A DNA stretch of 39,917 nt from a virus. Position numbers and translations under genes: made by a program. Positions within the stretch are counted from its first letter, which is position 1. Each line of letters opens with the position of its first letter. Of this stretch, positions 3,699-38,652 are shown one piece after another. The stretch is taken from IMG/VR virus record IMGVR_UViG_3300009149_005307, positions 1 through 39,917 of that record, one strand, 5' to 3'. A model generated the notes under the pieces. It was not told where the DNA came from and searched no databases. It saw only the letters and a list, made by a program, of their open reading frames with translations.

Positions 3699-3711
3699 TG
3701 GACTATCCTCC

Positions 3712-9177: not shown

Positions 9178-10160
9178 TTTCCCATCACCGCCTGTCTATA
9201 TGCCTTTAAAGTTTTAATTATATCAAACACCATTGCCATAAAATGCATATGTGGTACAAGTGAATTTTGATGACTGTTTGTATATTTATTGATTATAACT
9301 TTTGCAGGAGTTGGGATTTTTTCAGTAAAGAATAATTCTGAATATATATTTCTATATTCAATATCTTGTTGTGATAAAATATCAATAATTGAACTTACAG
9401 GCGACCCTATTTTAGAATCCTGTCCTTTTTCAATCATACTAAGTATCTGTAATATAAATGATATAATTTTTCTTTCTGTTGTTATAACAGATTCAATACT
9501 TATATCAAGTTTTCCATTTGATGAATTTCTTTGTATTGCATTAGTAATTTTTCTTACATCTGGATATAAATTATTAATTGCTAAGTTGATGTCTTTATCT
9601 TCAAATTTAACATTTTCTGCTATTAATATTTTTTGACAATATTCTAAAACAAATTCTTTTGGAATTTGGTTAAATGTATATACATTAAATCTGCTTTGAA
9701 CTGGATCTGGTATTCTTGATAAGTAATTACATGTAAATATAAAACGCCCATATGCTATCTGATATTTTTCAATAATTGCTCTTAATGAGTCATAACCATC
9801 ATTTGTAAGTTTATCAGCTTCATCAATAAATACAACTTTATATTTATCTCTTGCTGGAGGATGCTTCAAAAAGGGTTCAATTACTTCGTCAACAAAACCA
9901 ATACCTCTAGTCTTTTTTGCTGAACCATTAGCTGTTAATAAATTATCTTTTTTATTAAACAATACTCCATTCTCTGAACAAAGCATTCTTGCTAATGTAG
10001 TTTTACCACCACCAGGAGGACCAGAAAATAAAAGATTTGGAATTTCACATTTTGCAATCATCTTTCCAAATTCATCTTGATATTTCTGTGGAAGTGCCAT
10101 ATCATTTAATTTTAAAGGTCGATATTTTTCATTCCAAATTGAATCTAACAAATCACCCAT
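9174..10160 (-). CDS. Clamp loader AAA+ ATPase subunit (RFC small/gp44-like)
   Basis: A 328 aa AAA+ protein with an N-terminal WNEKYRP motif typical of RFC subunits, Walker A GPPGGGKT at 47-54, Walker B FIDEAD with the DEAD box at 113-116, sensor 1 N145 in FIFTCNYLSR, and an arginine-finger SRF at 156-158. The C-terminal helical domain follows. It loads the sliding clamp onto primed DNA with ATP. T4 needs a second subunit, gp62; the gene just upstream (10175-10573) is a positional candidate but shows no clear likeness. Confidence 0.93.
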   Translation of the reverse strand: MGDLLDSIWNEKYRPLKLNDMALPQKYQDEFGKMIAKCEIPNLLFSGPPGGGKTTLARMLCSENGVLFNKKDNLLTANGSAKKTRGIGFVDEVIEPFLKHPPARDKYKVVFIDEADKLTNDGYDSLRAIIEKYQIAYGRFIFTCNYLSRIPDPVQSRFNVYTFNQIPKEFVLEYCQKILIAENVKFEDKDINLAINNLYPDVRKITNAIQRNSSNGKLDISIESVITTERKIISFILQILSMIEKGQDSKIGSPVSSIIDILSQQDIEYRNIYSELFFTEKIPTPAKVIINKYTNSHQNSLVPHMHFMAMVFDIIKTLKAYRQAVMGK

Positions 10161-23866: not shown

Positions 23867-24693
23867 TAAAAATATTTTTGAGCGTTAGAAACAGATTAGC
23901 AATTACAAAAAAATGCTTACATGCGTTAGAAATACACTCAGAAATTCCAAACCAAATATACGTTTATAATAATGCCACTAATTATTTACTTGAAAAACAT
24001 TTTCAATATTTTCAGAAAATGTATACTAATAATAAAATTGCACAGATTACTTTTACAACCATTGAATCAACATTCAATGCATTTAGTAAAGCATCAACTT
24101 GTAATTTCTTTGGACTTCAACATGAGCAAGATCCAAACAAAGATTCATATGATTTTTTGTTGATGCTTGATAATGATATAATTGTAACACCTGGTTGGGA
24201 TACAAGATTGTTAAAAGCATGGAATTTTGTAAAGAAAAATAAATTAAATAATATTAGAGTTATAGGACAAAGACCAGGTGGTATTAAACAAGTAAAGGCA
24301 GAACTACATAATATCGATGATATGACTGGAAGAGCTGGTAAACTTGGTGGTTCTGGACTGTGGTCTGTGAGACCATCGTTTTTTAGAGATGTTGGATTTT
24401 TAGATCTTAAACAGTTGGTTGGTCATGATAAAAAACATGATCAGATGTATTGGTTGCTTATGGATAAAGTTAATAAAGGCGAACCATATATTTTGGGACT
24501 TAATTACAAGTTAGGGATTCATTGTGGAAAACAAGCAGGTTCTGTATGTAATCAATTAACAAGATCTAAAAGAAGTGAAGATAAACTGGAGGCAATTAAA
24601 TTTATAGGAGCGGAGGAAGCAATAGATAAAGTTAATTTTAATAAATTTTATAAAAGTATAGAAAATAATAAACAATTATTGGGTGATTGGTAA
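23863..24693 (+). CDS. GT-A glycosyltransferase (GT2-like)
   Basis: A 276 aa protein. The N-terminus is a β-strand and helix (FLSVRNRLAITKKCLHAL) typical of the nucleotide-binding half. The metal-binding DxD is D103-N-D105 in LLMLDNDIIVTPGW, and a GGSGLWSVRPSFF loop near 158 belongs to the acceptor side. This is a cytosolic sugar transferase. It overlaps the GT9 stop by ATGA. The donor sugar cannot be told. Confidence 0.82.
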   Translation: MIKIFLSVRNRLAITKKCLHALEIHSEIPNQIYVYNNATNYLLEKHFQYFQKMYTNNKIAQITFTTIESTFNAFSKASTCNFFGLQHEQDPNKDSYDFLLMLDNDIIVTPGWDTRLLKAWNFVKKNKLNNIRVIGQRPGGIKQVKAELHNIDDMTGRAGKLGGSGLWSVRPSFFRDVGFLDLKQLVGHDKKHDQMYWLLMDKVNKGEPYILGLNYKLGIHCGKQAGSVCNQLTRSKRSEDKLEAIKFIGAEEAIDKVNFNKFYKSIENNKQLLGDW

Positions 24694-24694
24694 T

Positions 24695-25606
24695 ATGGAA
24701 AAAGCTATTCTTCTTGGCCCTTTTGTTGGAGAAATGTATTGGGAGGCTGGAAGGTTTGCTCCAATGTTACCATTTCTTCTTCTAAAAAAATATAAAAAAC
24801 AAAATATTAAATTTATTGTATTAACACGAGAAGAAAGATTTGATTTATATGGCAGGTATGCAGATATATTAATACCATTAAAAATTGATGGAGATTATAT
24901 TACTAAGAAACCAAACTGTTTTAGATTGGATGGATTACGCCCTCCAGAATATGAAAACATGGCTAAAACTTTTAAAGAACAATATTCAAAAAGATTTCAA
25001 ATAATTGATCACATATATCCAGATGTTACAAAAGCAAAATTTGTAAACAAAAATCAATTTTCAACTAAGCAAATGATATTTCAATATAAACCACGAATGG
25101 AAAATTATGAATTGGTTAATTCTTATATACCAAATGGAAAACCTCTTGTTGTTTTAGCACCAAGATATAGAAATGGGTTTAGAAGAAATTGGTCAAACTG
25201 GAAAGGATTTTATGACAAACTTTCAACTGATGAAGATTTAATGACATATTTTAATTTTGTCATTTGTGGTAAAAAAGGAGAGTATGTTCCTGATGAAAAA
25301 AATAGATTTTATGATATGAACAATATACAACTAGGAGAAAAATCATCTACAATTGGTTTATTATTGGTTATATTGCAAAAGTCTATTTTTACATTTGGGT
25401 CACAAAGTGCAATTCCAAATATATCATTATTATATGGGATTGAAGTTTTAGAATTTGGGTGTCAAAAAGCGTTACATACAAAAACATATAATATAAAAAA
25501 CACACCCATAACATTTATAGAAGATAGGCAATATAAAATTGAAGTTTCAAAGATTTATCAACATTTCAAAAATCTACTTCAAAAGAAAAAGGGAGAAATA
25601 AAATGA
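24695..25606 (+). CDS. Unknown GT-B-like protein, paralogue A
   Basis: A 303 aa protein with start at 24695; four residues upstream could be added but bring no ribosome site. It shares a long block with the protein at 25787-26572: GPFVGEMYWEAGRFAP, a FIVLTREERFDLYGRYADILIPLK region and KRFQIIDHIYPD. The second half has PLVVLAPRYRNG and SSTIGLLLVILQKSIFTFGSQSAIPN, which resemble the donor-binding half of GT9 and related enzymes. It is probably a glycosyltransferase of an undescribed family. Confidence 0.65.
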   Translation: MEKAILLGPFVGEMYWEAGRFAPMLPFLLLKKYKKQNIKFIVLTREERFDLYGRYADILIPLKIDGDYITKKPNCFRLDGLRPPEYENMAKTFKEQYSKRFQIIDHIYPDVTKAKFVNKNQFSTKQMIFQYKPRMENYELVNSYIPNGKPLVVLAPRYRNGFRRNWSNWKGFYDKLSTDEDLMTYFNFVICGKKGEYVPDEKNRFYDMNNIQLGEKSSTIGLLLVILQKSIFTFGSQSAIPNISLLYGIEVLEFGCQKALHTKTYNIKNTPITFIEDRQYKIEVSKIYQHFKNLLQKKKGEIK

Positions 25607-25806
25607 GAAACACATGGGTAGCAATAAACAGCGAAAAATTAGCAGCAATGAAGCTTTTTTTAACAGAGTGTGAATACAAACCAGAGTATGATAATTTTCC
25701 AATTAGAAAAATTCAACTTCTTTTAAATGGTTTAGAAGCAGAGGTTAATAAATTATACAATGAGATTGTAGCATTAAAAAGAGCCAATGCTAAGAAAGAA
25801 GAATAA
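25603..25806 (+). CDS. Small helical protein, 67 aa
   Basis: A coiled-coil-like small protein (KIQLLLNGLEAEVNKLYNEIVALKRAN) between the two paralogues. It starts at an ATGA overlap and has AAGGGAG upstream. Family not recognised. It might be a scaffold or partner for the paralogue pair. Confidence 0.65.
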   Translation: MRNTWVAINSEKLAAMKLFLTECEYKPEYDNFPIRKIQLLLNGLEAEVNKLYNEIVALKRANAKKEE

Positions 25807-26572
25807 AGCTTTTTTGGTTGGTCCTTTTATCGGAGAGTTATCATGGGAGTTTTATAGATTTGCTCCTTATATAATTAATCTTAAAAAAAAGAATCCAACT
25901 AAAAAAATAATTGTTTTTACAAGACCATCACGGTTTGATTTATATGGGGTGTATGCGGATATTTTAGTTCCATTGAAATTAATAAGTGATGATTCTGGCA
26001 ATCATAATTGTTTTACAATTAAAGATTTTAATGGAACGGGATATAGTTTATTATCAAAAGCATTTATCACGAAATATCAAAAAAGATTTAAGGTAATTGA
26101 TCATATTCATCCAGATATTTCTAGATTTTATTATAAAGTTAAATGGCAGTTTCCAAGAGATTTAATGGATTATGATTTTAAACCAAGAATTGTTAATACT
26201 AAATATGTTGAAAAATATAATAGTGGTAATTTGATATTTTACAATGTTTATAATAGAACACATCCGCAATGCCTGAGAAAATATGATGTAGAATTTGCTA
26301 ATACATTTTATGAAGAACTTTCATTCAACTATGATAATCAAAATATAACTTCAGTTGGATGTCTTATTGAGTTAATTAAAAAATGTAAATTTGTTATAAG
26401 TTCGTTTGATTCGTTTGTGTCTCACTTAGCATTATTATTAAAAATTCCTGTAATAGCACCGAGAGAAAATATAAGCGAAGACAAGATACATTTACTCAAT
26501 CCTTTAAATACACCAGTTATATTATATGATGAATTAGAAAGGGGGATTGAATGTTATGAAAATAATTTTTGA
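25787..26572 (+). CDS. Unknown GT-B-like protein, paralogue B
   Basis: A 261 aa homologue of the protein at 24695-25606, aligned over the N-terminal block GPFIGELSWEFYRFAP, the FTRPSRFDLYGVYADILVPLK region and KRFKVIDHIHPD. The C-terminal half is shorter; it has VISSFDSFVSHLALLLKIPVIAP, like the donor-side helix-strand of GT9-type enzymes. It overlaps its neighbours at both ends. Probably a second sugar transferase with a different substrate. Confidence 0.65.
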   Translation: MLRKKNKAFLVGPFIGELSWEFYRFAPYIINLKKKNPTKKIIVFTRPSRFDLYGVYADILVPLKLISDDSGNHNCFTIKDFNGTGYSLLSKAFITKYQKRFKVIDHIHPDISRFYYKVKWQFPRDLMDYDFKPRIVNTKYVEKYNSGNLIFYNVYNRTHPQCLRKYDVEFANTFYEELSFNYDNQNITSVGCLIELIKKCKFVISSFDSFVSHLALLLKIPVIAPRENISEDKIHLLNPLNTPVILYDELERGIECYENNF

Positions 26573-27545
26573 TTTAAGATCCACTGGTTTGGGTGATAAT
26601 GGTGGAAGTTCGACTCTTATAAAATCAGGAAATGCTTTAGTTGATTTGGGACACGAAGTATTTTTTATTGATACATTTCGGAATATGAATACATGGACTC
26701 CTTTAAATGCTAAACATATACTTGTAAAAAATAAAAAAGAAATACCCGATGCTGATGCTATTATTGCAACAGGGTATAAATCAGTCGAATTAACGAGTCA
26801 AGCTCCTAAGCGATGTGGTTTAAAAATACATTGGATAAGAGCTTGGGAAACTTGGCAGGGTTCTCAGAGTTGGATAATTGAAAAAATTCTGAAAGCACCA
26901 ACTTTAAAATTAGTTAACGGGATTGGATTACAAGAAAAGCTAAAAGAGCTTGGATTTGAATCCAAGTTAATTAGACCTGGATATGATTTACATGAATTGT
27001 ATCCAACTGGAAAAAGGGGTAATAGCGATAATATTGTAATCGGTGGGTTATATCATCAAAAGCATTTTAGAATTAAAAGAGTTTCTTGGTTGTTGGATGT
27101 GGCATCTTATCTAAAATCTAAAAGAAAGGATGTGAAACTTCATTTGATGGGGGCTACAAAATTCCCATCAGTAACCATTGATAAGTATATAACAAACCCA
27201 ACAACCAAGGATAAAAATTGTTTTTATAATGAAATTGATATTTGGATGGCGCCTGCAATGCAAGAGGGTTTACATATGCCTCCTGCTGAAGCAATGCTAA
27301 CAGGATGTCCAATTGTTACAACAAATAATCTAATGTCTGGAACAAAAGATTATGCGATTCATGGAAAAAATGGATTGGTGTCAAACGATGATTATTTATC
27401 ATTTCAAAGTTATGTTGAGTTATTAGTTAATGATGAAGATTCAAGGGATTTGATGGGAAAAGAAGCAAGAAATACAATTATAAAACTAGGTTCCAGAAAA
27501 GAAAATATGACCAAATTAATTCAATTCATCATGGAAAATAAATAA
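26556..27545 (+). CDS. GT4-family glycosyltransferase
   Basis: A 329 aa GT-B retaining transferase. The start at 26556 is an ATG with GGGGG 10 nt upstream; a TTG at 26547 is less likely. The N-terminal domain has a Gly-rich GLGDNGGSSTL loop. The C-terminal domain has MAPAMQEGLHMPPAEAMLTG, which contains the E-x7-E donor-binding signature, then PIVTTN. It adds a nucleotide-activated sugar to a growing glycan. Confidence 0.88.
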   Translation: MKIIFDLRSTGLGDNGGSSTLIKSGNALVDLGHEVFFIDTFRNMNTWTPLNAKHILVKNKKEIPDADAIIATGYKSVELTSQAPKRCGLKIHWIRAWETWQGSQSWIIEKILKAPTLKLVNGIGLQEKLKELGFESKLIRPGYDLHELYPTGKRGNSDNIVIGGLYHQKHFRIKRVSWLLDVASYLKSKRKDVKLHLMGATKFPSVTIDKYITNPTTKDKNCFYNEIDIWMAPAMQEGLHMPPAEAMLTGCPIVTTNNLMSGTKDYAIHGKNGLVSNDDYLSFQSYVELLVNDEDSRDLMGKEARNTIIKLGSRKENMTKLIQFIMENK

Positions 27546-28360
27546 TGAATTTTTTAAAAGTACAAGATATATTTGATAAGTTAGAAAATTGTATTGAGTA
27601 TAAATTGCCATTTTCGCATATAAGATTTGGTGATGGAGGTATAAAATTTATTCATTCTCTTTTGTTTAAAGATATAGATCAACTCAATATAATTGTACAA
27701 AAAGAAGGATTACCATCAGATAAATTGGTTGAGATATTTGAACTTTGGGGATATTATGCAAGAAAGGCAGATTGTATTGATACTCCCCAAGTATATTTTG
27801 ATGGTACGTTTTGGCCAAGAATAAAGAAACCGAATAAACCAATTAATTCTGAAACCGAATATAAGATGAAAATATGGAAAGATCTTTATAACCGTTCAGA
27901 ATTTGATAATGATACATATTGTAATCCAGAATCTAATTGTTTGATGATATTAGATATACCCGGAAGACGAACCCTACTTGACTTAATGAAAAATAGAAAG
28001 GTATGTATCATAACAGCACGACCAGAAATAAAATCTATGTTACCAGAAGTTGATATAATTCCAATTGTTGGACAATATGAAAATCAATATGAAAATTCAT
28101 TTTTTGAAGTTGTGAAGCGTATAAAAAATACAGCGAAAGATTATGATTTTTGGTTGGTAGCAGCGGGAGAATTGGGAAGAATATATACTGGAATGATTAA
28201 AGAGTATGGTGGTCGTGCTGTAGATATTGGTTTTGTTATAGAGTTTTGGTTAGATGGTTATTTACATCCTCGCTTTCATTTATTTATTGCAACAACAATT
28301 GATAATAATTTTACAATGCGACTTACACCAGAAGGAAAAAAATATGAAAAGTTTATCTAA
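27545..28360 (+). CDS. DUF1792/GT-D-type glycosyltransferase
   Basis: A 271 aa protein. The N-terminal HIRFGDGG at 25-32 and the later DYDFWLVAAGELGRIYTGM...GRAVDIGFVIEFW near 200-245 correspond to the RFGDGE and aaG...DiGh motifs of the GT-D fold (DUF1792), first seen in streptococcal adhesin glycosylation. It lies between a GT4 and a GT-A gene, fitting an ordered chain of transferases. Only the motifs are clear; the sugar is unknown. Confidence 0.75.
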   Translation: MNFLKVQDIFDKLENCIEYKLPFSHIRFGDGGIKFIHSLLFKDIDQLNIIVQKEGLPSDKLVEIFELWGYYARKADCIDTPQVYFDGTFWPRIKKPNKPINSETEYKMKIWKDLYNRSEFDNDTYCNPESNCLMILDIPGRRTLLDLMKNRKVCIITARPEIKSMLPEVDIIPIVGQYENQYENSFFEVVKRIKNTAKDYDFWLVAAGELGRIYTGMIKEYGGRAVDIGFVIEFWLDGYLHPRFHLFIATTIDNNFTMRLTPEGKKYEKFI

Positions 28361-29093
28361 CCCAATCGATATTACAATGGTCGCTGTTTTAAGACCTGGT
28401 GTTATTGAAGAAACTCTTACTTCTATAAATGATAATATAATAAGAGGAGAAAAACACAGATATAGACTTATAATTAATATTGATCCAATTGGTGAAACAG
28501 TTAAACCTATGAAAATTATTAAAATAGCAGCACGATTTTTTGATAGAATAACATATAATATTGCGGATGTACCATCATTTGCAAAAGCCGTAAAGTGGGT
28601 GTGGAGTCGTGTTGAAGCAGATTATGTTTTTCATATTGAGGATGATTGGTCAATTTTAAGAAAAATAAACATCAATAATATGATCAACATACTCAACAAA
28701 TATCCAAAACTATCATCGTTAAGATTATATAAAGAACAAACCCCAAACATAAAAAGAATTAAAACTTTTTCATGTAGATGGAATTATAATGAAGATGGTT
28801 TTTATTTAGCAGAAGGTTGGCAAAAACAATTTGGATTAAATCCAATATTAATTAAAAGAGAGTTTATTGAAGAAGCTGTACCACGAATGGTTGATACAGT
28901 TAATCCTGAAAAACAATTTAGAATGTCTCAAAAATACATGCGCCCTGTTATACAAAAATGGGAATATGGTTTATATACAAAACCAGGCGCCTCAAGATTG
29001 GTTTATGGTAAACGTGGATTGAGATGGAGAGAAGAGCAGAATATGAAAAAACCCGGAGAAGGACAAACCTTTTTAACATGGGTTCCGAAATAA
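28344..29093 (+). CDS. GT-A-like glycosyltransferase
   Basis: A 249 aa protein with the start at 28344 because GAAGG lies upstream; a longer frame runs through the previous gene. The metal-binding EDD (E99-D100-D101) sits in YVFHIEDDW, and a LRLYKE strand and GLNPILIKREF acceptor loop follow. This is the layout of small GT-A transferases. It overlaps the GT-D gene by 17 nt. Confidence 0.75.
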   Translation: MKSLSNPIDITMVAVLRPGVIEETLTSINDNIIRGEKHRYRLIINIDPIGETVKPMKIIKIAARFFDRITYNIADVPSFAKAVKWVWSRVEADYVFHIEDDWSILRKININNMINILNKYPKLSSLRLYKEQTPNIKRIKTFSCRWNYNEDGFYLAEGWQKQFGLNPILIKREFIEEAVPRMVDTVNPEKQFRMSQKYMRPVIQKWEYGLYTKPGASRLVYGKRGLRWREEQNMKKPGEGQTFLTWVPK

Positions 29094-29104
29094 GGAGAAA
29101 AAAG

Positions 29105-29593
29105 ATGAAACAGAATAATATACACCCATCTTTCAAACATGGCAAAAATTTAAAACTAGGAAGTTTTAATGTAATAGAAGAAGATGTAATTGTTGGAGAT
29201 AATGTTGATATTCAAAATTTTGTATTGTTGAAAAAAGGAACTAGAATAGGGAATGACTGTTATGTTGATAGTTATTTTCGTTCTTCTGGGGATAACTTTA
29301 TTGGAGATAATGTTACGTTGAGGTTTGGTTCAACTATTGCTAGAAAGGTAATGGTTGAGAATAATGTATTTATTTCACCAAATGTAATGACAGTTTATAG
29401 TTTACCTGATGGACAAAAGAGTTCAGGAACCTTTATTGGAGAAAATGCTTTTATTGGAACAGCTGCAGTTTTAGCTCCTAATATCTCAATTAGACCTGGT
29501 TCTATTGTTGGAGCAAATTCATTTGTAAATAAATCAATATTGGAGAAAGGTATCTATGCTGGAAACCCTGCTAAACTTATTCGCAAACTATAA
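29105..29593 (+). CDS. Left-handed β-helix acyltransferase (hexapeptide repeat)
   Basis: A 162 aa protein built of repeated [LIV]-G-x4 hexapeptides (VIEEDVIVGDNVDIQNF, IGNDCYVDSYF, IGDNVTLRF, IGENAFIGTAA). It ends in YAGNPAKLIRKL, the usual end of sugar acetyltransferases. AAGGAG lies 9 nt upstream. It would trimerise and transfer acetyl or another acyl group to a sugar. No substrate-specific motif is visible. Confidence 0.85.
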   Translation: MKQNNIHPSFKHGKNLKLGSFNVIEEDVIVGDNVDIQNFVLLKKGTRIGNDCYVDSYFRSSGDNFIGDNVTLRFGSTIARKVMVENNVFISPNVMTVYSLPDGQKSSGTFIGENAFIGTAAVLAPNISIRPGSIVGANSFVNKSILEKGIYAGNPAKLIRKL

Positions 29594-30302
29594 AAAGACC
29601 TGCCCAATAACTAAGGTTCGTTCTGGATGTGTCACATTTGCAAGAGATGAAAGCTATCTCAAATATTTATATTTAACTGATAAAATGAGAGATGCTTGGG
29701 TTATTGTTCCATGGGATATGTCAACGCCTAGTTCTTCAAGTGGCAATATAAAATATTATCATTCTAAGTATCCTGAATATGAATTTACGCTATTTCATAA
29801 TCATTTAAATAAAGATAAGACATATAAAATTGCTTCTATTGCTCCAAATTGTAAGATACATGAAACCGTCTTAGTTGGCGTTGAGGGGTTGAAAGTTGTT
29901 AATACACCTGATGGGTCAAAGATTCAATTTATTCATACTGGGCGCGTTGATATTGAGGAGAATGTTGAAATTGGTCCGTATTCTGTAATACATCGTGGAA
30001 CTATGGAGAATACATTAATAAGAAAAGGTTGTAGATTCGGAGTATATACAAACATAGGTCATAATTGTAACATAGGCGAGAATACAGTTATGGCTGCTGG
30101 TGTAATATTGAATGGTGGAGTTAAACTCGGAAAAAATTGTTGGTTTGCATCTGGTGTATTGGTAAGACATTATGTCAATATATGTGATAATGTAGTAATA
30201 GGACTTGGTTCTGTAGTTGTTAAAGATATAACCGAACCTGGTATATATGTTGGTAACCCTGCAAGGTATTTAAAACCAATAACAGAAGGGTGGAATTTCT
30301 AA
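29556..30302 (+). CDS. β-helix acyltransferase, LpxD/sugar O-acyltransferase-like
   Basis: A 248 aa protein with a 90-residue N-terminal domain, then hexapeptide repeats (VEIGPYSVIHRG, FGVYTNIGHNCNIGENTVMAAGVILNG) and the end YVGNPARYLKP. The IGHNCNIG and GVILNG pattern is shared with LpxD and PglD-type acyltransferases; H171 in IGHN is the likely base. The ATG lies inside the previous gene and has AAAGG upstream. Substrate not assigned. Confidence 0.85.
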   Translation: MLETLLNLFANYKKTCPITKVRSGCVTFARDESYLKYLYLTDKMRDAWVIVPWDMSTPSSSSGNIKYYHSKYPEYEFTLFHNHLNKDKTYKIASIAPNCKIHETVLVGVEGLKVVNTPDGSKIQFIHTGRVDIEENVEIGPYSVIHRGTMENTLIRKGCRFGVYTNIGHNCNIGENTVMAAGVILNGGVKLGKNCWFASGVLVRHYVNICDNVVIGLGSVVVKDITEPGIYVGNPARYLKPITEGWNF

Positions 30303-30895
30303 TGAAGATATTAGTTATTGCAGCACATTATGATGATGCAGAGATAGGATGTGGTGGAACAATAATGAAACATATTAGTGATGGAGATGAGATATTTTAT
30401 GCAATCACAAGTTCAGATGAATATAGAACTGGATTCCCAGAAGAAAGACTTGCAGAACAATGTGATGTTTTAAAAAGAATGGGAATACCCACAACATCAA
30501 TGACTTTGTTTTCATATAAAGATAATCTTCATACAATTATTGGTTCTTTGGATTCTCTTAAACCTGATATTGTGTTCACACATTTTGAAAATGATACTCA
30601 TCAAGATCATGTAAGAGCAAGTACAATTGGGCAGGCAGTTGGAAGAAAAAGATATACCACTACAGTATTTTATGATAGTGGATCATCATATAACTTTAGT
30701 GCTAATGTTTTTTCAATAATTGATTTTGAAGAAAAAATGTATCTTTTAGAATTTTATAAAAGTCAAATTAATGCAGGAGCTATCAGCTTAGATATTATTA
30801 AAAGAAAAAATGCATATTGGTCATCATTAATTACAAATAACCCAGATGGTTATGCAGAAGGATTTGTAGTAAGGAAAATGAAATGGATAATTTAA
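30302..30895 (+). CDS. PIG-L/LmbE-family deacetylase
   Basis: A 197 aa zinc deacetylase. The metal motif AHYDDAE at 8-14 is the family's AHPDDxE with Pro replaced by Tyr, and FTHFENDTHQDH near 92-103 supplies the further His/Asp ligands (H94, H100, D102, H103). The family removes acetyl from N-acetyl sugars or lipids linked to GlcNAc. It begins at a TAATG junction with the acyltransferase, so removal and addition of acyl groups are encoded side by side. Confidence 0.9.
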   Translation: MKILVIAAHYDDAEIGCGGTIMKHISDGDEIFYAITSSDEYRTGFPEERLAEQCDVLKRMGIPTTSMTLFSYKDNLHTIIGSLDSLKPDIVFTHFENDTHQDHVRASTIGQAVGRKRYTTTVFYDSGSSYNFSANVFSIIDFEEKMYLLEFYKSQINAGAISLDIIKRKNAYWSSLITNNPDGYAEGFVVRKMKWII

Positions 30896-31359
30896 ATTCT
30901 CACTCAGATGTATTACTACATTTATTAAAAAACAGACCACATGCAGTAGGTGCTGAAATTGGAGTCCATACTGGAACTACAACGGGTGTTTTGTTAAATG
31001 GATTAAAAACAATTCAAAAATATTATGCAATTGATCCATGGAAATCATATAAACAATATGATGGAAGTATATATAGAAAACCTGGCAATAAAAAAATAAA
31101 GACGTGGGGCGATGCCTACCAAGAGTATTTAAAAACAATCTCTCCATTTGATTGTGTTATTACTATAAAATCAACAAGTGTTGAAGCATGTAAGAAAGTT
31201 TATGATAAAGAATTAGATTGGGTATTTATAGATGCTAATCATGAGTATGAATATATCAAAGAAAATTTAAAGCTATGGATACCAAAGGTAAAGAAAGGTG
31301 GATTTGTTTCTGGACATGATTATGGAAATAAATGGAGTGGAATAAAAAAAAGCAGTTGA
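30883..31359 (+). CDS. SAM-dependent methyltransferase, C-terminus frameshifted
   Basis: A 158 aa class I methyltransferase. SAM-binding motif I is GAEIGVHTGTTTG at 24-36; the following acidic strand is YAIDPW; and DWVFIDANHEYEYIKENLKLW is typical of the Methyltransf_24 group. The last residues GIKKSS are aberrant. The A-run at 31344-31351 (eight A) shifts the frame; with seven A the protein would continue AVDETVPTDTTLNIEDFYIWW and end at 31426. The likely substrate is a sugar or its phosphate. Confidence 0.85.
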   Translation: MDNLNSHSDVLLHLLKNRPHAVGAEIGVHTGTTTGVLLNGLKTIQKYYAIDPWKSYKQYDGSIYRKPGNKKIKTWGDAYQEYLKTISPFDCVITIKSTSVEACKKVYDKELDWVFIDANHEYEYIKENLKLWIPKVKKGGFVSGHDYGNKWSGIKKSS

Positions 31360-31431
31360 TGAAACAGTTCCAACTGATACTACATTAAATATTGAAGATT
31401 TTTATATATGGTGGTTTATAAAGTGACCAAA

Positions 31432-31466
31432 AAAAGAATGAGGGTAAGTAATACCCCCACTCTTTT
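31432..31466 (-). terminator. Rho-independent terminator
   Basis: Arms 31432-31446 and 31452-31466 pair over 15 positions with a 5 nt loop. On the minus-strand RNA the two imperfect positions are G-U pairs, while on the plus strand they are A-C mismatches, and a run of seven T follows only in the minus direction. It ends the secreted-protein transcript and may also stop plus-strand read-through weakly. Confidence 0.85.
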
Positions 31467-31476
31467 CTTCTACTAA

Positions 31477-32133
31477 TTAACCGTTTATCGTTTTACCGAT
31501 AAACCAGTCATACCCAGGTTTGACGAAATCAAATGCTTCAGTATCAGTTTCAATTTTTACTTCGATCCCTGAATCTACATTGATCACCTTAACTTCAATG
31601 TGGTAAAAACCAGGAACCATATCATTCAATTTACTTTTTGCTTCATCAGACATCATGAAATCATTGGTATAAATACCAAAGTTTCCATCTGAATATTTAG
31701 ATATTGCAAATTTTCTCGATTCAGCTTTATGAATTTCTTCAACGGGGGCGGAACCAAGAATAACACCTTGAGGAATAGCATTTGATTGAGCATCAGCAAG
31801 TTGTTTTTCCAGTTCGGCAATACGGTCGGTCAGCGAATTATTTTCATCGATAAGGGCATCATTTTCTATTTCTAGTTCAGATACCTGATATTGAAGTTCG
31901 ATGTTTATGCTAGAACACTCTTCTGCTTGAACTTTCCATCCATGTCTGTTTTGATGTTGGTTTTGATGTCTGTTGTTTTGATCTTGTTTCCAAGATGCTT
32001 TGCCATTTGAATTGGCATTATTTCCGGCGGGGTTGATTGCTGTATTTTTGTCATTACCAGCAAATGCAATACTGTTAAAAGATACGAACATAACCATAAC
32101 CATAATTGCGATAATCGAGATATTTTTTCTCAT
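31477..32133 (-). CDS. Secreted coiled-coil protein (cargo gene)
   Basis: A 218 aa protein with a clear Sec signal peptide: MRKN, a hydrophobic core to about residue 20, and AFA at 23-25 before the cleavage site. The mature part has an Asn/Gln/His-rich stretch (about 50-66), one cysteine, a coiled coil (about 72-117) and a compact C-terminal domain (about 130-218) of unknown family. The start at 32133 has GGAG 8 nt upstream. It is the only minus-strand gene in a long plus-strand block, with its own terminator and leader, and its base composition looks less AT-rich. This pattern fits a moron: a gene that changes the infected cell, here from the periplasm or outside. Confidence 0.8.
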   Translation of the reverse strand: MRKNISIIAIMVMVMFVSFNSIAFAGNDKNTAINPAGNNANSNGKASWKQDQNNRHQNQHQNRHGWKVQAEECSSINIELQYQVSELEIENDALIDENNSLTDRIAELEKQLADAQSNAIPQGVILGSAPVEEIHKAESRKFAISKYSDGNFGIYTNDFMMSDEAKSKLNDMVPGFYHIEVKVINVDSGIEVKIETDTEAFDFVKPGYDWFIGKTING

Positions 32134-32141
32134 GATAGTTG

Positions 32142-32195
32142 GTCTCCTTTTCCGGATTGGCATTTTATAATGCACACGTACTGTTGTCCGGAGAC
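32142..32195 (-). promoter_or_regulatory. Leader hairpin covering the ribosome site of the secreted protein gene
   Basis: On the minus strand GTCTCC (32195-32190) can pair with GGAGAC (32147-32142), which contains the Shine-Dalgarno sequence. TCCGG and CCGGA lie next to the two arms, and an inner hairpin GCATT/AATGC (32160-32173) sits between them. The structure would hide the ribosome site unless melted or bound, so translation may be controlled by heat, a protein or a small RNA. Confidence 0.6.
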
Positions 32196-32298
32196 TAAGA
32201 TTAATAATATACTCTGCTAGTTTTTTATCCTATCCCCAGCAGCTTCGGATAGTCGCGTTTTTGATTTAAAAGTCTTCGCAATGACTTTGCTTACATGA
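32196..32298. promoter_or_regulatory. Divergent intergenic region upstream of the secreted protein gene
   Basis: This gap should hold the minus-strand promoter. A TATATT or TATTAT -10-like box lies at about 32203-32211, with no convincing -35. A more GC-rich stretch with AGCAGCTTCGG and AGTCGCG lies at 32238-32258. No gene is seen. Confidence 0.4.
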
Positions 32299-32312
32299 AT
32301 TAATATATATAG
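32299..32312 (+). promoter_or_regulatory. Candidate phage promoter box, second copy
   Basis: ATTAATATATATAG, identical to 13112-13125, lies 28 nt before the ATG of the glycosyltransferase at 32340. It restarts plus-strand expression after the minus-strand cargo gene. Evidence is the exact repeat and position only. Confidence 0.45.
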
Positions 32313-32339
32313 CATTTAAATATATAACTGAGGAGACGA

Positions 32340-33251
32340 ATGAAAATATTAATGTTAAGCCCTAATCAAATAAGTAGATATAACTGGGGGCATCAATTAT
32401 TCAGAGATGAGTTTGGAAGACAGACTCCAACTAAATATTATGGGAATGGATTTCTGGGATTTAATTCAAAACTAACAGTCCAACAAATTATTAGAAATCA
32501 CTGTGATTGGAAACCTGATTTGATTATGACTTATGGATGGAGATACTCAAAAGATTTTAAAGGACTTGGAAAAATTAATGATATTCCAAAGGTTCATATT
32601 ACTGTTGATTATGGTCGCCCAGAAGGAATCCCAATTCAGAATGCATTTTTTAAACAAAATAAGTACGACCTTGTTTTTGCTATTACTTTAAATGCTTGGA
32701 GATTATTAAGAAAAAATAAAGTATGTGATATGATAGAAATTTCTCCATTTTCAGTTGATACAACAAAATACGTATCATTAGGATTAAAAAAGAAAGATCA
32801 GGTACTTGCTGCATTTACAACTCGATCTGATATATATCCTGACAGAACTAAAGTTCAACAAATTATAAAATCAATGGGGTATCCTGTTGTTACTAGAAGA
32901 ATAGTTCATCAAGAATTAATAAAATCAATAAACAGGTCAAAAATTATTGTAACCAGCAATAATATATTCAGATCGGTAAGTATGAGATATACAGAAACAA
33001 TGTCATGTGGAGGATTTCTGTTAGCTGATGAACCTGAAGATATGGATTTTTTGGGATACATTGATGGAAAACATTTTGTTGTATATAGAGACATGAGAGA
33101 TTTGCAAAGAAAAATTAGATACTATATGACTCATGATAGACAAAGGGAAAAAATTGCAAAGCAAGGAATGGAGTTTGTTAGAGAAACATATAGTAATGAA
33201 AAACGCGTTCAGGATATGATTAAATTAATGAAACAGAGGTTATATTCATGA
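32340..33251 (+). CDS. CgeB-like glycosyltransferase
   Basis: A 303 aa GT-B protein. The C-terminal half carries MRYTETMSCGGFLLADEPED, then FLGYIDGKHFVVYRDMRDLQRKIRYY and a final long helix, as in the CgeB/Glyco_trans_1_2 group. The N-terminal half contains DLIMTYGWRYSKDF. GAGGAG precedes the ATG, and it is the first gene after the promoter-like box. Donor and acceptor unknown. Confidence 0.82.
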   Translation: MKILMLSPNQISRYNWGHQLFRDEFGRQTPTKYYGNGFLGFNSKLTVQQIIRNHCDWKPDLIMTYGWRYSKDFKGLGKINDIPKVHITVDYGRPEGIPIQNAFFKQNKYDLVFAITLNAWRLLRKNKVCDMIEISPFSVDTTKYVSLGLKKKDQVLAAFTTRSDIYPDRTKVQQIIKSMGYPVVTRRIVHQELIKSINRSKIIVTSNNIFRSVSMRYTETMSCGGFLLADEPEDMDFLGYIDGKHFVVYRDMRDLQRKIRYYMTHDRQREKIAKQGMEFVRETYSNEKRVQDMIKLMKQRLYS

Positions 33252-33754
33252 GTATAATGATTGCAACTCAAAATATTATGAGAAAAGTTGCATTACAAAA
33301 AATACCTTTAACAAAGAGTACTATTTTTGAGTTAGGGTGCTCAGATGGTAATTTTGCAAGCTTGTTAGTAGATAGATATTCTGAATATACTGGAGCTGAT
33401 ATTTTAAAACATAAAATTGACATTGCTAGGACTCGTTTTCCTAAAATGAAATTCCTACAAATAAATATATGTAACAATTTAGATATATTAAAGTGTGTAA
33501 ATGTATTCATTTCATTTCAAGCACTTGAACATATACCATGCGATCTTAAAATATTTGAATCGTTATTAAAAGGAACTATTGTTATATTTTCAGTCCCAAA
33601 TAGTCCATATAAAGATCAGCATTTGAGGTGGTTTGAAATCGAAGGTTGGAAAGAAAGGTATTCTTCCTTTATAGATTTTGATTATGAACTTACAATACAG
33701 CATCCAAAAAAAGAAGCAAAAAGAGCATTTCTATTTAAGGGAGTTAGAATATGA
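33248..33754 (+). CDS. SAM-dependent methyltransferase
   Basis: A 168 aa class I methyltransferase. Motif I is FELGCSDGNFA at 28-38, the second strand ends in GADI, and FISFQALEHIPCD is the usual post-II helix region with H in the ALEHI segment. The shape fits small sugar or glycan O-methyltransferases. ATGA overlaps join it to both neighbours. Confidence 0.85.
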   Translation: MSIMIATQNIMRKVALQKIPLTKSTIFELGCSDGNFASLLVDRYSEYTGADILKHKIDIARTRFPKMKFLQINICNNLDILKCVNVFISFQALEHIPCDLKIFESLLKGTIVIFSVPNSPYKDQHLRWFEIEGWKERYSSFIDFDYELTIQHPKKEAKRAFLFKGVRI

Positions 33755-34239
33755 CAACAAAAATTGAGTCAACAGCAATCATAGAACCTGGTGCAATAAT
33801 TGGAGATGATTGTTATATTGGACATTATACAATCATAAGACCAAAAGCAGTTATTGGAAATAACTCACATGTAAGAGCTCATTGTTTTATTGCAGAGGGA
33901 GCAATAATAGGAAATGATGTTCATGTAATGCAGTATTCAAATATATGTAGAGATTGCATTATAGAAGATAAAGTATTCATTGGTATGGGTTGTATGACAA
34001 CAAACACAAGAAAGATTGCATATTTAAGAAATTATAAAGATATATCCGAGGCACCTGTTATTAAATATGGAGCAAGAATAGGAGCAAGAGTTTTAATTCT
34101 TCCTGGAGTTATAATTGGAAGAAATTCATTAATTGGGGCTGGTTCTGTTATTTCAAAAAATACAATTGATGGGTGGGTGTATATTGGAAGCCCTGCAAAA
34201 CCAATTAGAATAGTTTCTAAAGATGAGGTACTGCCATGA
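33751..34239 (+). CDS. WbpD-like sugar N-acetyltransferase (left-handed β-helix)
   Basis: A 162 aa protein made of hexapeptide repeats (IIEPGAIIGDDCYIGH, VIGNNSHVRA, IIGNDVHVMQ). A break loop CMTTNTRKIAYLRNYKD follows, and then GARIGARVLILPGVIIGRNSLIGAGSV and the end YIGSPAKPI. The break loop followed by the GARIGA...IGAGSV segment has the same order as in WbpD/WlbB, the acetyltransferase that makes UDP-GlcNAc3NAcA. Neighbouring WbpB- and WbpI-like genes strengthen the call, but other acetyltransferases share this fold. Confidence 0.75.
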   Translation: MTTKIESTAIIEPGAIIGDDCYIGHYTIIRPKAVIGNNSHVRAHCFIAEGAIIGNDVHVMQYSNICRDCIIEDKVFIGMGCMTTNTRKIAYLRNYKDISEAPVIKYGARIGARVLILPGVIIGRNSLIGAGSVISKNTIDGWVYIGSPAKPIRIVSKDEVLP

Positions 34240-34424
34240 GTTGTGATTGTTTACAAAGTGGATTTTGTGATTTTCAACTTTTTGGTGGCGGTGCGACTAT
34301 AGAGTGTCCTTGCAGAATATGTTTAGTTAAGTCAATGTGTAAAGAATTAATATGTGAAATAAGGGATGAACATCACTTAAAAATATTTGGGTATATTAAT
34401 GCACATCCTCCGGAGGAAAAATAA
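34236..34424 (+). CDS. Small Cys-rich protein, 62 aa
   Basis: A protein with eight cysteines within 39 residues (SCDCLQSGFC, ECPCRICLVKSMC, then ELIC), which could bind one or two zinc ions or a cluster. It overlaps neighbours on both sides (ATGA; TAATG), so it is translated together with the sugar enzymes. Family not recognised. Confidence 0.65.
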   Translation: MSCDCLQSGFCDFQLFGGGATIECPCRICLVKSMCKELICEIRDEHHLKIFGYINAHPPEEK

Positions 34425-35281
34425 TGAATTTTGGTTTAATTGGAGCAGCTGGATTTGTAGCACCTCGACACATACAAGCAATCAAAGATACTGAAAATGA
34501 TTTGAAAGTAGCTCTTGATCCACACGATTCAGTTGGTATTCTTGATAAATATTTTTCCGAGTGTAAATTTTTTACAGAGGTTGAAAGGTTTGATAGACAT
34601 ATAATGAGAGAAGAGGCTCTTGATTATATGTCAATTTGTTCTCCAAATTATTTACACGAATCACATATTAAACTTGGATTAAGATTGGGGTGTAATATTA
34701 TATGTGAAAAACCATTAGTTACCCACCCGAGAAATATACCACAACTTGAAGAAGTCTCAGATCAAATGGGGAAACAAATATATACAATACTTCAATTAAG
34801 ATTACACCCAAGTATCCGTTTATTAAAAAGTATGGTTGATCCAAAACATTATTATGATGTTATACTTGATTATGTGACTCCGAGAGGACCATGGTATTTT
34901 CACAGTTGGAAAGGAAAAGTTGGGCAATCTGGCGGAATCGAAACAAACATTGGTATTCATTTTTTTGATATGTTGATTTGGTTATTTGGAAAATGTGAAA
35001 CATTTAATATTATTTTTAGAGATGAAAGCTGTTCAAGGGGGGAGTTGTATTTAGAGAGAGCTAAGGTGGTATGGAATTTATCATTAAATAAGAAACATCT
35101 TCCAAATAAATTATTATCATTTTATAGATGTATGAAAGTAGATGGTACAGAAATTAGATTTGATAATGTATTTTCAGATCTACACACAGAATCATATAAA
35201 GAAATTTTAGATGGTAATGGATTTGGTATTAAAGAATCATACGACTCAATAGATTTAGTAACTAAGATAAGGGAGAGTTAA
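34424..35281 (+). CDS. Gfo/Idh/MocA oxidoreductase, WbpB/WlbA-like
   Basis: A 285 aa NAD-dependent sugar dehydrogenase. The N-terminal Rossmann motif is GLIGAAGFVAPRH at 4-16 and the catalytic EKP is at 95-97. The C-terminal GGIETNIGIHFFDMLIWLFG near 170-189 (H179, D182) and YLERAKVVWNLS match WlbA/WbpB, which oxidises UDP-GlcNAcA at C3. Length is slightly short for the family (about 315). It lies directly before a 2-epimerase gene, as in wbp loci. The aminotransferase (WbpE) and 6-dehydrogenase (WbpA) are not in this window. Confidence 0.85.
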   Translation: MNFGLIGAAGFVAPRHIQAIKDTENDLKVALDPHDSVGILDKYFSECKFFTEVERFDRHIMREEALDYMSICSPNYLHESHIKLGLRLGCNIICEKPLVTHPRNIPQLEEVSDQMGKQIYTILQLRLHPSIRLLKSMVDPKHYYDVILDYVTPRGPWYFHSWKGKVGQSGGIETNIGIHFFDMLIWLFGKCETFNIIFRDESCSRGELYLERAKVVWNLSLNKKHLPNKLLSFYRCMKVDGTEIRFDNVFSDLHTESYKEILDGNGFGIKESYDSIDLVTKIRES

Positions 35282-35282
35282 A

Positions 35283-36347
35283 ATGTGTGTATTTTTAGTG
35301 GGTGGAACAAGACCAAATTTTATGAAGATTGCCCCTATATCTAGAGCGTTTGAAAAGTATAATATTTCATATGATATTATACATACAGGACAGCATTATG
35401 ACTATAATATGAATCAGGTATTTTTTGATGAGTTTGGGTTAAAAGAACCTCTAGTTCATTTAGAAGTTGGTTCTGGACCACATGGTGAACAAACAGGAAA
35501 AATAATGGAACGATTTGAAAGATTATGTTTTGATGCAAGACCTGATATAGTGTTTACTGTTGGTGATGTTAATTCTACTATGGCTGCTGCCTTGGTTGCT
35601 GCTAAACTTCATATTCCTTTAGCACATCAAGAAGCTGGAATGAGATCTGGTGATAAAAAAATGCCAGAGGAAATAAATAGAATTGTAACAGATCATATAT
35701 CAGATTGGTTATTTCCCATATCTCCACAAGATAGACGCAATTTATATAATGAAGGAATTGATCCGAAACATACATTTTTAGTTGGGGATGTTATGATTGA
35801 CAACCTTCTTTATTACACAAATGATACTAAACCAGAACATACTAATGAAAAACATATACTGGTAGAAATTCATCGACCTGCAAATGTTGATAACAAAGAG
35901 AATCTAACTGAGATTATAATAGCTCTTGCACAGCTATCTGAAGAACATCAAGTTATATTTTCACTTCATCCAAGAACTCGTAAAATGATTGATGAATTTG
36001 ATTTATGGCAATATATGCACACAATAGATTATTGTGAACCAATGGGTTATTTTGAGTTTGTAAAATATATGAAAGAAGCTGGTTGTGTTATAACAGATTC
36101 AGATGGAGTTCAGCAAGAAACATCAGTTTTAAATATTCCATGTGTGTCAATTAGAGATACAACAAATATTGAATATACTATTAAATATGGAACAAATACT
36201 TTAGTTTCCCCCAATAGAGATTTAATATATACACAATCAATATATCCTTTTTATAATAAACATATTGATAGTAATTATCCAGAACAATTAAAACAGTTAA
36301 ATGATGGAAATGCTTCAGAAAGGATTGCAAAGGTATTGATTAGTTAA
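35283..36347 (+). CDS. UDP-N-acetylglucosamine 2-epimerase, WbpI/WecB-like
   Basis: A 354 aa non-hydrolysing 2-epimerase. Visible motifs are GGTRPNFMKIAP at the N-terminus, TGQHYD near 37, VGDVNSTMAAAL near 100, HQEAGMRSGD near 120 with E, EEINR, IHRPANVD in place of the common HRxEN, and TDSDGVQQETSVLNIPC near 275. The HRPANVD form is closer to WbpI/WlbD than to WecB. It would turn a GlcNAc-type nucleotide sugar into the ManNAc form, the last step after the WbpB-like enzyme. AGGGAG lies before the ATG. Confidence 0.9.
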   Translation: MCVFLVGGTRPNFMKIAPISRAFEKYNISYDIIHTGQHYDYNMNQVFFDEFGLKEPLVHLEVGSGPHGEQTGKIMERFERLCFDARPDIVFTVGDVNSTMAAALVAAKLHIPLAHQEAGMRSGDKKMPEEINRIVTDHISDWLFPISPQDRRNLYNEGIDPKHTFLVGDVMIDNLLYYTNDTKPEHTNEKHILVEIHRPANVDNKENLTEIIIALAQLSEEHQVIFSLHPRTRKMIDEFDLWQYMHTIDYCEPMGYFEFVKYMKEAGCVITDSDGVQQETSVLNIPCVSIRDTTNIEYTIKYGTNTLVSPNRDLIYTQSIYPFYNKHIDSNYPEQLKQLNDGNASERIAKVLIS

Positions 36348-36903: not shown

Positions 36904-37077
36904 ATGACACAAGTCGCTGTGTACATGTGTGATAAGGGGCATCTACATTATGGAGATGATCCACCCAAAACTTGTCATATCTGTGGAAGTAGGAATTTTG
37001 GACAAATTACAGGTGTAAGTGTAGATACGGAGGAAGAATATGGGATATCCGACGAATCCGGATACGATAATTCTTAA
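36904..37077 (+). CDS. Small zinc-ribbon-like protein, 57 aa
   Basis: AAGGGGGAT precedes the ATG, supporting this short gene. The protein has MC near residue 9, a CHICG knuckle at 24-28 and an acidic tail. The Cys pattern suits a partial zinc ribbon. Its end overlaps the primase-polymerase start by 38 nt, so the two are probably coupled. Confidence 0.65.
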   Translation: MTQVAVYMCDKGHLHYGDDPPKTCHICGSRNFGQITGVSVDTEEEYGISDESGYDNS

Positions 37078-37738
37078 AAATAAATTCTATTCAAAAGGTT
37101 TAACAGAGCTAGATATTTGGAATTATTATCAAAGTGTGAAGCGTTCGATATTAGATGAAACTAAAAGTAGAGATGTTATGTTTGTAATTATGGTTGAACT
37201 TAATAAACCTGTAATAAGAAGGCGTGGTAAGGAAAGTAAAGTAATAAGATTAACACCAACGAATTATGATGATGTTATTACAGGAAGAACACTAAGTATA
37301 CATTCTGCTATGGGATCATATGAAACCTTTGGAATTATAGATATTGATATTCACCCATCAGATGGATTCAAATGGGCGCAAGAAGTAACACGTAGAGTTT
37401 ATGATTATGTAATGGATAAGATGCCAATGGTTAGAACTGCAACCATCCGTTATACAGGAAAACAATCATTCCATATAAAATGTGATTTTGGAAGAAAAAT
37501 GAAGATAGACACAGTTCGTTTTCTACTTACGAAATTTTTAAGAGAATCAGAACTATCTAAAGTTTATACAGTTGAAGGAAAAAGAAGAGCTGGGGTTCCT
37601 AATTTAGATATGGCACCAAATAAATATAGGGGAAATTATATTACACTTAATGCATTATCTACATGGGGATTGAGATGTACAGATGTACCATATTCATCTC
37701 TTATGAGTTTTAACCCAATAAAAGCAATCATTAAGTAA
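37040..37738 (+). CDS. Archaeo-eukaryotic primase superfamily (LigD-polymerase-like) protein
   Basis: A 232 aa protein with the three AEP catalytic motifs: D101-I-D103 in FGIIDIDIHP, S143-F-H145 in TGKQSFHIK and D190 in NLDM. The spacing and the flanks (a helix after the first motif; IRYTGKQSFHIK like the LigD SGGKGLHV strand; a final YRGNYITLNALSTWG strand pair) match the LigD polymerase domain. Such enzymes fill gaps, add ribonucleotides or prime. A separate DnaG-type primase exists at 8027-8839, so this is not the obvious replicative primase. A LigD-type phosphoesterase is encoded at 1267-1803. AGGAAG precedes the ATG. Confidence 0.83.
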   Translation: MGYPTNPDTIILKNKFYSKGLTELDIWNYYQSVKRSILDETKSRDVMFVIMVELNKPVIRRRGKESKVIRLTPTNYDDVITGRTLSIHSAMGSYETFGIIDIDIHPSDGFKWAQEVTRRVYDYVMDKMPMVRTATIRYTGKQSFHIKCDFGRKMKIDTVRFLLTKFLRESELSKVYTVEGKRRAGVPNLDMAPNKYRGNYITLNALSTWGLRCTDVPYSSLMSFNPIKAIIK

Positions 37739-37752
37739 TGGAGATAAATAAA

Positions 37753-38652
37753 ATGATATATTGTGATAATATTATAGAAGGACCTAAACCAGATAAAGAA
37801 ACTACAAAGAAACAAAAACCAAAAGTACCAATAAATAAACATCCTTTAACTTACAGATCAGATCCAGAAGATAACCGAGATTATCAATTTAAAAATAATT
37901 TTGCTTCCGTTAAAGATATGATAGCTACAACTCCTGTTTTTGTTGATCATACACCCGAAATGTCTTCTATTAAGGATCAAGGTTATTTAGGAAGTTGTGT
38001 TGGTTTTGCTGTTACAGCAATGAAAGAATGGCAAGAAGAAAAAGAACATAAAGAAGAAGTTTTAGAAGGAAAAAAAGATATTAGAGAAGGAAAAGAATAC
38101 GATCTATCTGAATCATGGTTATATTGGAATTGTAAAAAGATTGATATATGGCCAGGAGAGGAAGGAACATCAATTAGATATGCAATGACAGTATTAAATA
38201 AAATTGGTGTACCAACAGAGAAAGCATGGCCATATGATGATGTTAATATTGGTAAACCAAAATCCTGGGCAGCAATGATTTCTAAATGGGCATTGATACA
38301 TTCATATTGGAGAATTAATAATTTAATAGAACTGAAAGCTGCTTTAAAAGATGGACCGGTCCCAATTGGTATTGCTTGTTTTCTTGAAATTTTTTATGTA
38401 GGTTTTGATGGAGTTATTAAATATCCTGCAAATCCGAATGAAATATATGGCGGGCATGCTGTATGTGCTGTTGGATTTGATGATAATAGTAAACGAATAA
38501 AATTCAAAAATAGTTGGGGTAAAGATTGGGGTGATAGAGGATATGGTTATATTAGCTATGACTATATTAATGATTTTATGTGGGATGCATGGGCATGTAA
38601 AGATCTTGCTGTAACAAGTGAAATGCTGAAAGGAACTCGGGAGTTGGTATAA
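37753..38652 (+). CDS. Papain-like (C1A) cysteine protease
   Basis: A 299 aa protease with the start at 37753 since GGAG lies 9 nt upstream; a TAATG start at 37738 is possible. After a 45-residue propeptide-like region comes the catalytic core: Q76 (oxyanion hole) and C82 in SIKDQGYLGSCVGFAV, H235 in GGHAVCAVGF and N253 in FKNSWGKDWGDRGYGYI. All four catalytic residues are present. No signal peptide is seen, so it acts in the cytoplasm or virion. Possible roles are head-protein maturation or an attack on host proteins. Confidence 0.93.
   Translation: MIYCDNIIEGPKPDKETTKKQKPKVPINKHPLTYRSDPEDNRDYQFKNNFASVKDMIATTPVFVDHTPEMSSIKDQGYLGSCVGFAVTAMKEWQEEKEHKEEVLEGKKDIREGKEYDLSESWLYWNCKKIDIWPGEEGTSIRYAMTVLNKIGVPTEKAWPYDDVNIGKPKSWAAMISKWALIHSYWRINNLIELKAALKDGPVPIGIACFLEIFYVGFDGVIKYPANPNEIYGGHAVCAVGFDDNSKRIKFKNSWGKDWGDRGYGYISYDYINDFMWDAWACKDLAVTSEMLKGTRELV

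Follow-up and report, generated by a model that had tools for sequence, protein, structure and literature searches.

Predicted LigD-type polymerase, phosphoesterase and ligase enzymes encoded by separate genes in a group of phages

The DNA analyzed here (the window), a 39.9-kb fragment that constitutes a complete IMG/VR record, carries a gene for what is most likely a minimal, stand-alone enzyme of the LigD-Pol/Prim-PolC type, predicted to perform nucleotidyl transfer, together with a separate gene for a LigD-type 3'-phosphoesterase (PE). Several relatives encode an ATP-dependent DNA ligase beside the polymerase gene, so that all three LigD activities, as predicted from sequence, are carried by free proteins within the phage group. 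On the reading modestly favored here, the polymerase would serve a phage-encoded, Ku-independent module for the repair of strand breaks and short gaps. The features of the window on which the argument draws are as follows:

1267 to 1803, minus strand: stand-alone LigD-type 3'-phosphoesterase, predicted, 178 aa (PF13298 and PDB profile matches)
8027 to 8839, minus strand: DnaG-type primase-like protein (phrog_47 "DNA primase," E 1e-9)
37029 to 37034, plus strand: ribosome-binding site of the polymerase gene, GGAGGA, read in the sequence 5 nt before the ATG
37040 to 37738, plus strand: LigD-Pol/Prim-PolC-type primase-polymerase, predicted, 232 aa (motifs, 20-member alignment, AF2 model, and Foldseek)
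37340 to 37348, plus strand: polymerase motif I, D101-x-D103, metal ligands (invariant, 20/20)
37466 to 37474, plus strand: polymerase motif II, S143-F144-H145, nucleotide binding (F and H invariant, residue 143 S or G)
37607 to 37609, plus strand: polymerase motif III, D190 (D in 19/20, E in 1/20)

Polymerase family, fold, and missing elements

The polymerase open reading frame is judged to be a genuine gene from its strong ribosome-binding site and its 21 relatives. An earlier note on this DNA had read the catalytic residues D101, D103, S143-x-H145, and D190 from this plus-strand frame, and these positions hold; D101, D103, and H145 are invariant in 20/20 sequences of the alignment, designated A6, which consists of the window polymerase and 19 viral relatives that are 42 to 65% identical to it. 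The AEP superfamily is marked by the motifs hhhDhD, sxH, and hD or hE (PMC8656161), and all 20 aligned members contain the corresponding IIDID, [SG]FH, and LD/E, with residue 143 being S in 14/20 and G in 6/20.

The commonest Pfam family among the polymerase members was LigD_Prim-Pol (8 of 13), but the matches fell under the curated cutoff of 27.4 bits, the window polymerase scoring 13.1 bits and the best member (L037) 24.0 bits. NCBIfam TIGR02778 likewise scored the window polymerase below its cutoff (13.1 versus 214.7 bits). A phmmer search of PDB with the polymerase returned chance matches only, and PHROGs offered no convincing family for it; a sequence-profile search of PDB was topped by the Methanocella NHEJ polymerase (E 0.017). 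Profile-profile alignment against twelve LigD-type Pols was collinear over 229 columns, with a single-comparison E of 3.7e-8, and paired D101, D103, H145, D190, and N194 with D137, D139, H178, D227, and N231 of the MtLigD Pol.

The AF2 model of the polymerase, built on 13 sequences, had a pLDDT of 93.3 and a pTM of 0.88. Its top Foldseek matches were AEPs only (probability 1.00), and PDB ranks 1 to 16 were all LigD-type Pols (E 8e-11 to 7e-9; TM 0.76 to 0.82), comprising Prim-PolC, the Mycobacterium tuberculosis LigD Pol, the Methanocella Pol, and the Pseudomonas aeruginosa LigD Pol. The best match was Prim-PolC (6sa0; E 8.4e-11, TM 0.82). The remaining AEPs, namely, CAPP, human PrimPol, and the archaeal and human primases, followed with E values of at least 3e-4 and TM scores of at most 0.57, and a viral structure library held no close match to the model (best E 3.5e-5, TM 0.45). 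The motif match goes beyond chance because the Pfam family, the profile-profile alignment, and the order of the Foldseek matches all agree with it, and the polymerase almost certainly belongs to the LigD-Pol/Prim-PolC branch of the AEP superfamily. Fold, profile, and motifs thus lend strong support to the proposal in the earlier note of a LigD-polymerase-like AEP, and D101, D103, H145, and D190 would be expected, given the fold match and the alignment, to cluster in space.

NHEJ polymerases hold the recessed 5'-phosphate with N13, K16, and K26 and bring about end synapsis through loop 1, the apex of which is H83-R84-S85 (PMC3898472). Residues were mapped onto the LigD Pols by profile alignment at about 17% identity. 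Of the 5'-phosphate pocket, N13 is retained (as N14) in 20/20 phage polymerases, K16 falls in a four-residue deletion of the family, and K26 is replaced by E or Q in 20/20. The loop 1 region corresponds to a gap of 14 columns, and loop 1 is probably absent from the phage family. The loop 2 region, which contains K217 and R220 in the NHEJ Pol, is present in an uncertain register, with K181 in 18/20 and R182 in 19/20 phage sequences. Prim-PolC has an additional loop 3 (PMC7442782); this C-terminal loop is missing from the phage protein because the latter ends earlier, at about Mt residue 275, and has no C-terminal extension. The phage polymerase therefore looks like a reduced LigD-type enzyme that must grip DNA in some other way.

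A search with the single protein returned no further polymerase loci, and tblastn against 50,697 reference phage records found no match to either the polymerase or the PE. Three related contigs (248, 223, and 86 kb) were reached through the neighboring clamp-loader gene, and all of them contain the polymerase (62 to 65% identity) and the phosphoesterase. Alignment-based scans brought the total to 19 viral loci and two contigs binned into archaeal genomes; 22 loci were counted altogether, with the 21 relatives of the window polymerase being mostly 42 to 65% identical to it. The two binned contigs (L045 and L046) are assigned to Thermoplasmatales and Woesearchaeota genomes and are probably misbinned phage DNA, since their gene content resembles that of the phage contigs. 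The sole fusion in the family is found in L036 (7758 to 8678), in which the N terminus of the polymerase is extended by a DUF2196 domain (PF09962, E 2.1e-28). Two short fecal "Bacteriophage sp." records (L070 and L071; MT838650 and MT836529) also contain a LigD-type polymerase, with 29 to 31% identity to the M. tuberculosis LigD Pol; these possibly viral records are flagged UNVERIFIED, and they were set aside because their polymerase is not of the present family.

Phosphoesterase and ligase partners

The separate phosphoesterase described in the earlier note is a LigD-type 3'-phosphoesterase, an assignment that can be regarded as secure from its profile matches. The product of the minus-strand gene matched PF13298 (E 3.4e-19; 69.4 bits against a cutoff of 31.1) and TIGR02777 (E 3.7e-21, below the cutoff of that model), and the best PDB matches of the PE profile were archaeal and LigD PEs (E 8e-33 to 2e-23). 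Measured against the catalytic set of the P. aeruginosa enzyme (H42, H48, D50, R52, H84, and Y88), five of six residues are invariant in the phage family (H11, H19, D21, R23, and H57). The position of the catalytic tyrosine is occupied by E in 11/14 sequences, and two extra residues lie between the metal histidines.

A PE gene is present in 14/20 polymerase-bearing records, including 8/8 of those of at least 200 kb. The polymerase and PE genes are separated by about 35 kb in the window and in its three closest relatives, compared with about 0.9 kb in L035. Six further contigs, all of them possible fragments, contain a PE gene and no polymerase gene, and because of these the pairing is not strict in the data at hand. 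Around the PE gene of the window are an HNH nuclease gene on one side and small open reading frames on the other, and the polymerase is not part of this neighborhood. The HNH endonuclease gene (222 to 725, minus strand; PF01844, E 1.3e-15) has counterparts next to or near the PE gene in L054, L056, L060, and L052. An open reading frame at 3246 to 3734 (minus strand) encodes a desulfoferrodoxin N-terminal domain (PF06397, E 2e-11), which is unexpected in a phage; similar frames were recognized by eye near the PE genes of L052 and L054. Two LigD-type PE genes stand in tandem on a single contig (L042 and L044; G014, at about 31.0 to 31.7 kb).

The distance between the two genes in the window and its closest relatives, the composition of the PE neighborhood, and the existence of PE-only contigs would all fit an explanation in which the polymerase and PE are LigD-like but functionally unrelated, the PE working, for example, with the HNH nuclease and the polymerase acting alone in end tailing. 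Both genes have nonetheless been kept in phages whose polymerases are only 42 to 65% identical, and all eight large contigs contain both. Pathway genes are, moreover, often scattered in large phage genomes. Such a separation of roles is considered improbable.

An ATP-dependent DNA ligase gene beside the LigD-type polymerase gene is a new observation for this phage group and a minority arrangement, being found in 6/22 loci, five with the genes adjoining and one with an open reading frame between them. The ligase gene may lie on either side of the polymerase gene: in L015 (ligase gene at 8696 to 9715) it overlaps with the stop codon of the polymerase; in L033 (8698 to 9735), L046, and L016 it starts 1, 15, and 140 nt after that codon, respectively; in L024 one open reading frame separates the two genes; and in L037 its end immediately precedes the polymerase start. 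The two genes thus overlap or nearly do so in L015, L033, and L037. The encoded proteins (338 to 345 aa) comprise an adenylation and an OB region, are too short to include a large DNA-binding domain at the N terminus, and conserve motifs I (KxDG, with one KxDS), III, IV, and V. The best curated NCBIfam model in 3/4 of the ligases tested was the NHEJ ligase domain TIGR02779, below its cutoff, and the nearest solved relatives by profile were archaeal-type DNA ligases. When IMG/VR was scanned with this family of ligases, polymerase-bearing contigs only were recovered; the result is supportive and not independent, since the same five members had supplied the patterns. Three further records encode other phage-type ligases at other positions.

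The earlier note had raised the prospect of a ligase and a Ku gene in the full genome. A ligase did turn up beside the polymerase in the six relatives, and none was recognized in the 39.9-kb window or in the 223-kb relative G003. Ku (PF02735) was found at an E value of up to 1 in 0/20 records, most of which are fragments and 8 of which are 200 to 315 kb in length.

Genomic context and proposed role

The window very probably represents jumbo phage DNA. Its replication genes encode a clamp loader (phrog_168, E 4e-59), a Dda-like helicase, a RuvC-like resolvase, a weakly matched 5'-3' exonuclease, and a DnaG-type primase, and it also encodes a virion protein. All relatives of this virion protein among the reference phages are encoded in genomes of 223 to 274 kb (AR9, PBS1, Machias, and others), and therefore the fragment is attributed to a jumbo phage. 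Bacterial contamination was considered and rejected, as the window and its close relatives have phage replication and virion genes in common. Support for a known defense system was also lacking: PADLOC gave no match, and the CRISPR-associated Prim-Pol is a far poorer fold match.

Directly before the polymerase gene is a long run of sugar-metabolism genes (22595 to 36347, plus strand), partly identified by eye, with glycosyltransferase-like genes, hexapeptide transferases, a GFO/IDH/MocA oxidoreductase, and a UDP-GlcNAc 2-epimerase (PF02350, E 7e-93). A papain family protease gene (37738 to 38652, plus strand; PF00112, E 1.2e-17) begins on the final base of the stop codon of the polymerase, and papain-like genes are also found near the polymerase in L014, L015, and L016. 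Frames of approximately 1,000 aa just downstream of the polymerase in L021 (8719 to 11775) and L037 (9750 to 12758) resemble phage RNA polymerase subunits by eye. In L020, L022, L031, L033, L034, and L045, the downstream region repeatedly contains putative genes for QueC (7-deazaguanine synthesis) and dCMP deaminase; these identities were assigned by eye and hint at modified phage DNA.

The DnaG-type primase that the earlier note had listed for the same phage is present as the phrog_47 match at 8027 to 8839, a region for which Pfam gave no match, and replication priming seems to be covered by this other enzyme. Its presence bears on the possibility that the polymerase is itself a replication primase or a repriming enzyme, acting on special templates or in restart independently of the PE and ligase. 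The polymerase is an AEP, and RNA primase activity is known for LigD Pol domains (PMC8656161). Most of the phage AEPs on record are replicative primases (PMC5862659), and the polymerase family is conserved whereas the neighboring ligase is not. However, no helicase or zinc-binding domain is attached to the polymerase, its fold is nearest to the repair Pols and far from the replicative primases, and its gene is paired with a ligase gene in six loci. Together with the DnaG-type enzyme, these observations make a priming role quite unlikely.

True phage NHEJ, in which the polymerase, PE, and ligase would join double-strand ends with the help of a diverged Ku or a host Ku, also has to be weighed; its substrates would be the ends of the genome or breaks that host nucleases have caused. 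All three archaeo-prokaryotic NHEJ enzymes occur in the phage group, as separate proteins like those of Methanocella (PMC4797286), and mycobacteriophage Corndog is thought to rely on NHEJ and a Ku of its own for genome circularization (PMC4351075). The 20 records, however, yielded no Ku, and the phage polymerases lack K16 and K26 and apparently loop 1, elements needed for end binding and synapsis (PMC3898472). End joining of this kind is regarded as unlikely. Ku-independent repair is preferred to it because of the missing Ku, the missing pocket lysines, the probable loss of loop 1, and the pairing of the polymerase with a ligase. The module also fits the fold and profile matches to the repair Pols, the co-occurrence of the PE with the polymerase, and the availability of a DnaG-type primase for replication. 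The end-processing system suggested in the earlier note gains strength from the adjacent ligase; the Ku on which end joining would depend was absent from the 20 related records, and among the functions listed there (repair, gap filling, and end joining), the first two are now better supported than the third.

In the favored Ku-independent repair of strand breaks and short gaps, the polymerase would extend DNA at a gap or broken end by one nucleotide or a few, with a preference, by analogy, for ribonucleotides. Any 3'-phosphate or terminal ribonucleotide would be trimmed from the 3' ends by the separate 3'-phosphoesterase, and the ATP-dependent ligase encoded beside the polymerase in some relatives would seal the nick. 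The three enzymes may act jointly, on gaps and nicks more than on double-strand ends. Several observations count against this repair module: the window has no ligase and none was recognized in G003, a ligase beside the polymerase is confined to a minority of loci, the PE gene is remote in the window and its closest relatives, and six PE-bearing fragments have no polymerase. In addition, the phage family lacks loop 3, the gap specificity element of Prim-PolC, and has lost the 5'-phosphate pocket, which Prim-PolC uses as well. A bolder reading, somewhat less likely than not, is that a group of giant phages possesses a complete Ku-independent LigD-type kit of its own, made up of three free proteins, that mends gaps or breaks in phage DNA, perhaps with ribonucleotides, with the polymerase gripping its substrate without the 5'-phosphate pocket known from characterized LigD-type repair polymerases.

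LigD-type polymerases have been known as repair enzymes of cells, and the phage primase-polymerases that have been described are mostly replicative. If the proposed role is correct, large phages would be able to repair breaks and gaps in their own DNA instead of borrowing host repair. The roles of loop 1 and of the 5'-phosphate pocket could also be probed with the stripped-down polymerase, and the proteins are potential small, free-standing tools for filling gaps and repairing ends.

Comparison with known systems

In a survey of 224 jumbo phages, AEPs are mentioned as AAA+-fused primases and the word LigD appears nowhere (PMC7824862); a second survey, of AEPs in mobile elements, regards those of LigD as cellular (PMC5862659). 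Within the open-access literature, LigD-type enzymes that are encoded by phages as separate genes, are reduced in form, and have no Ku found with them apparently are new, and an earlier description may exist elsewhere. The phage and viral AEP primases (AAA+-fused AEPs, TOTE type, and LEF-1) share virus-encoded AEP catalytic motifs with the polymerase but are mostly replicative, often helicase fused, and a weak match by fold. Corndog resembles the present phages in its investment in a LigD-type pathway; it has Ku, whereas here the enzymes are phage encoded and Ku is missing.

The Pol domain of LigD from M. tuberculosis and P. aeruginosa has a collinear catalytic core but forms part of a fused protein, to which the phage polymerase is approximately 17% identical, with K16 deleted, K26 changed to E or Q, and a gap at loop 1. 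AP-NHEJ deals with double-strand breaks by means of Ku together with Pol, PE, and Lig, which are separate proteins in many organisms (PMC4797286). The NHEJ Pol of Methanocella paludicola (5dmu; TM 0.78) is the best PDB sequence-profile match and likewise works with separate Pol, PE, and Lig proteins. However, the Methanocella genes form an operonic NHEJ set with Ku, and the polymerase has loop 1 and the 5'-phosphate pocket, whereas the phage PE gene is usually remote, the pocket is lost, and Ku was not found. Prim-PolC/LigC of mycobacteria (6sa0 and 5op0) is alike in being the best fold match and a stand-alone Pol with an ATP-dependent ligase nearby, as in the six phage relatives. In mycobacteria, the Prim-Pol and the ligase encoded next to it fill gaps of 1 to 3 nt with ribonucleotides during excision repair, without Ku (PMC5663958). 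In comparison with Prim-PolC, the phage protein is about 100 aa shorter and has neither loop 3 nor the 5'-phosphate lysines, and the phages add a PE.
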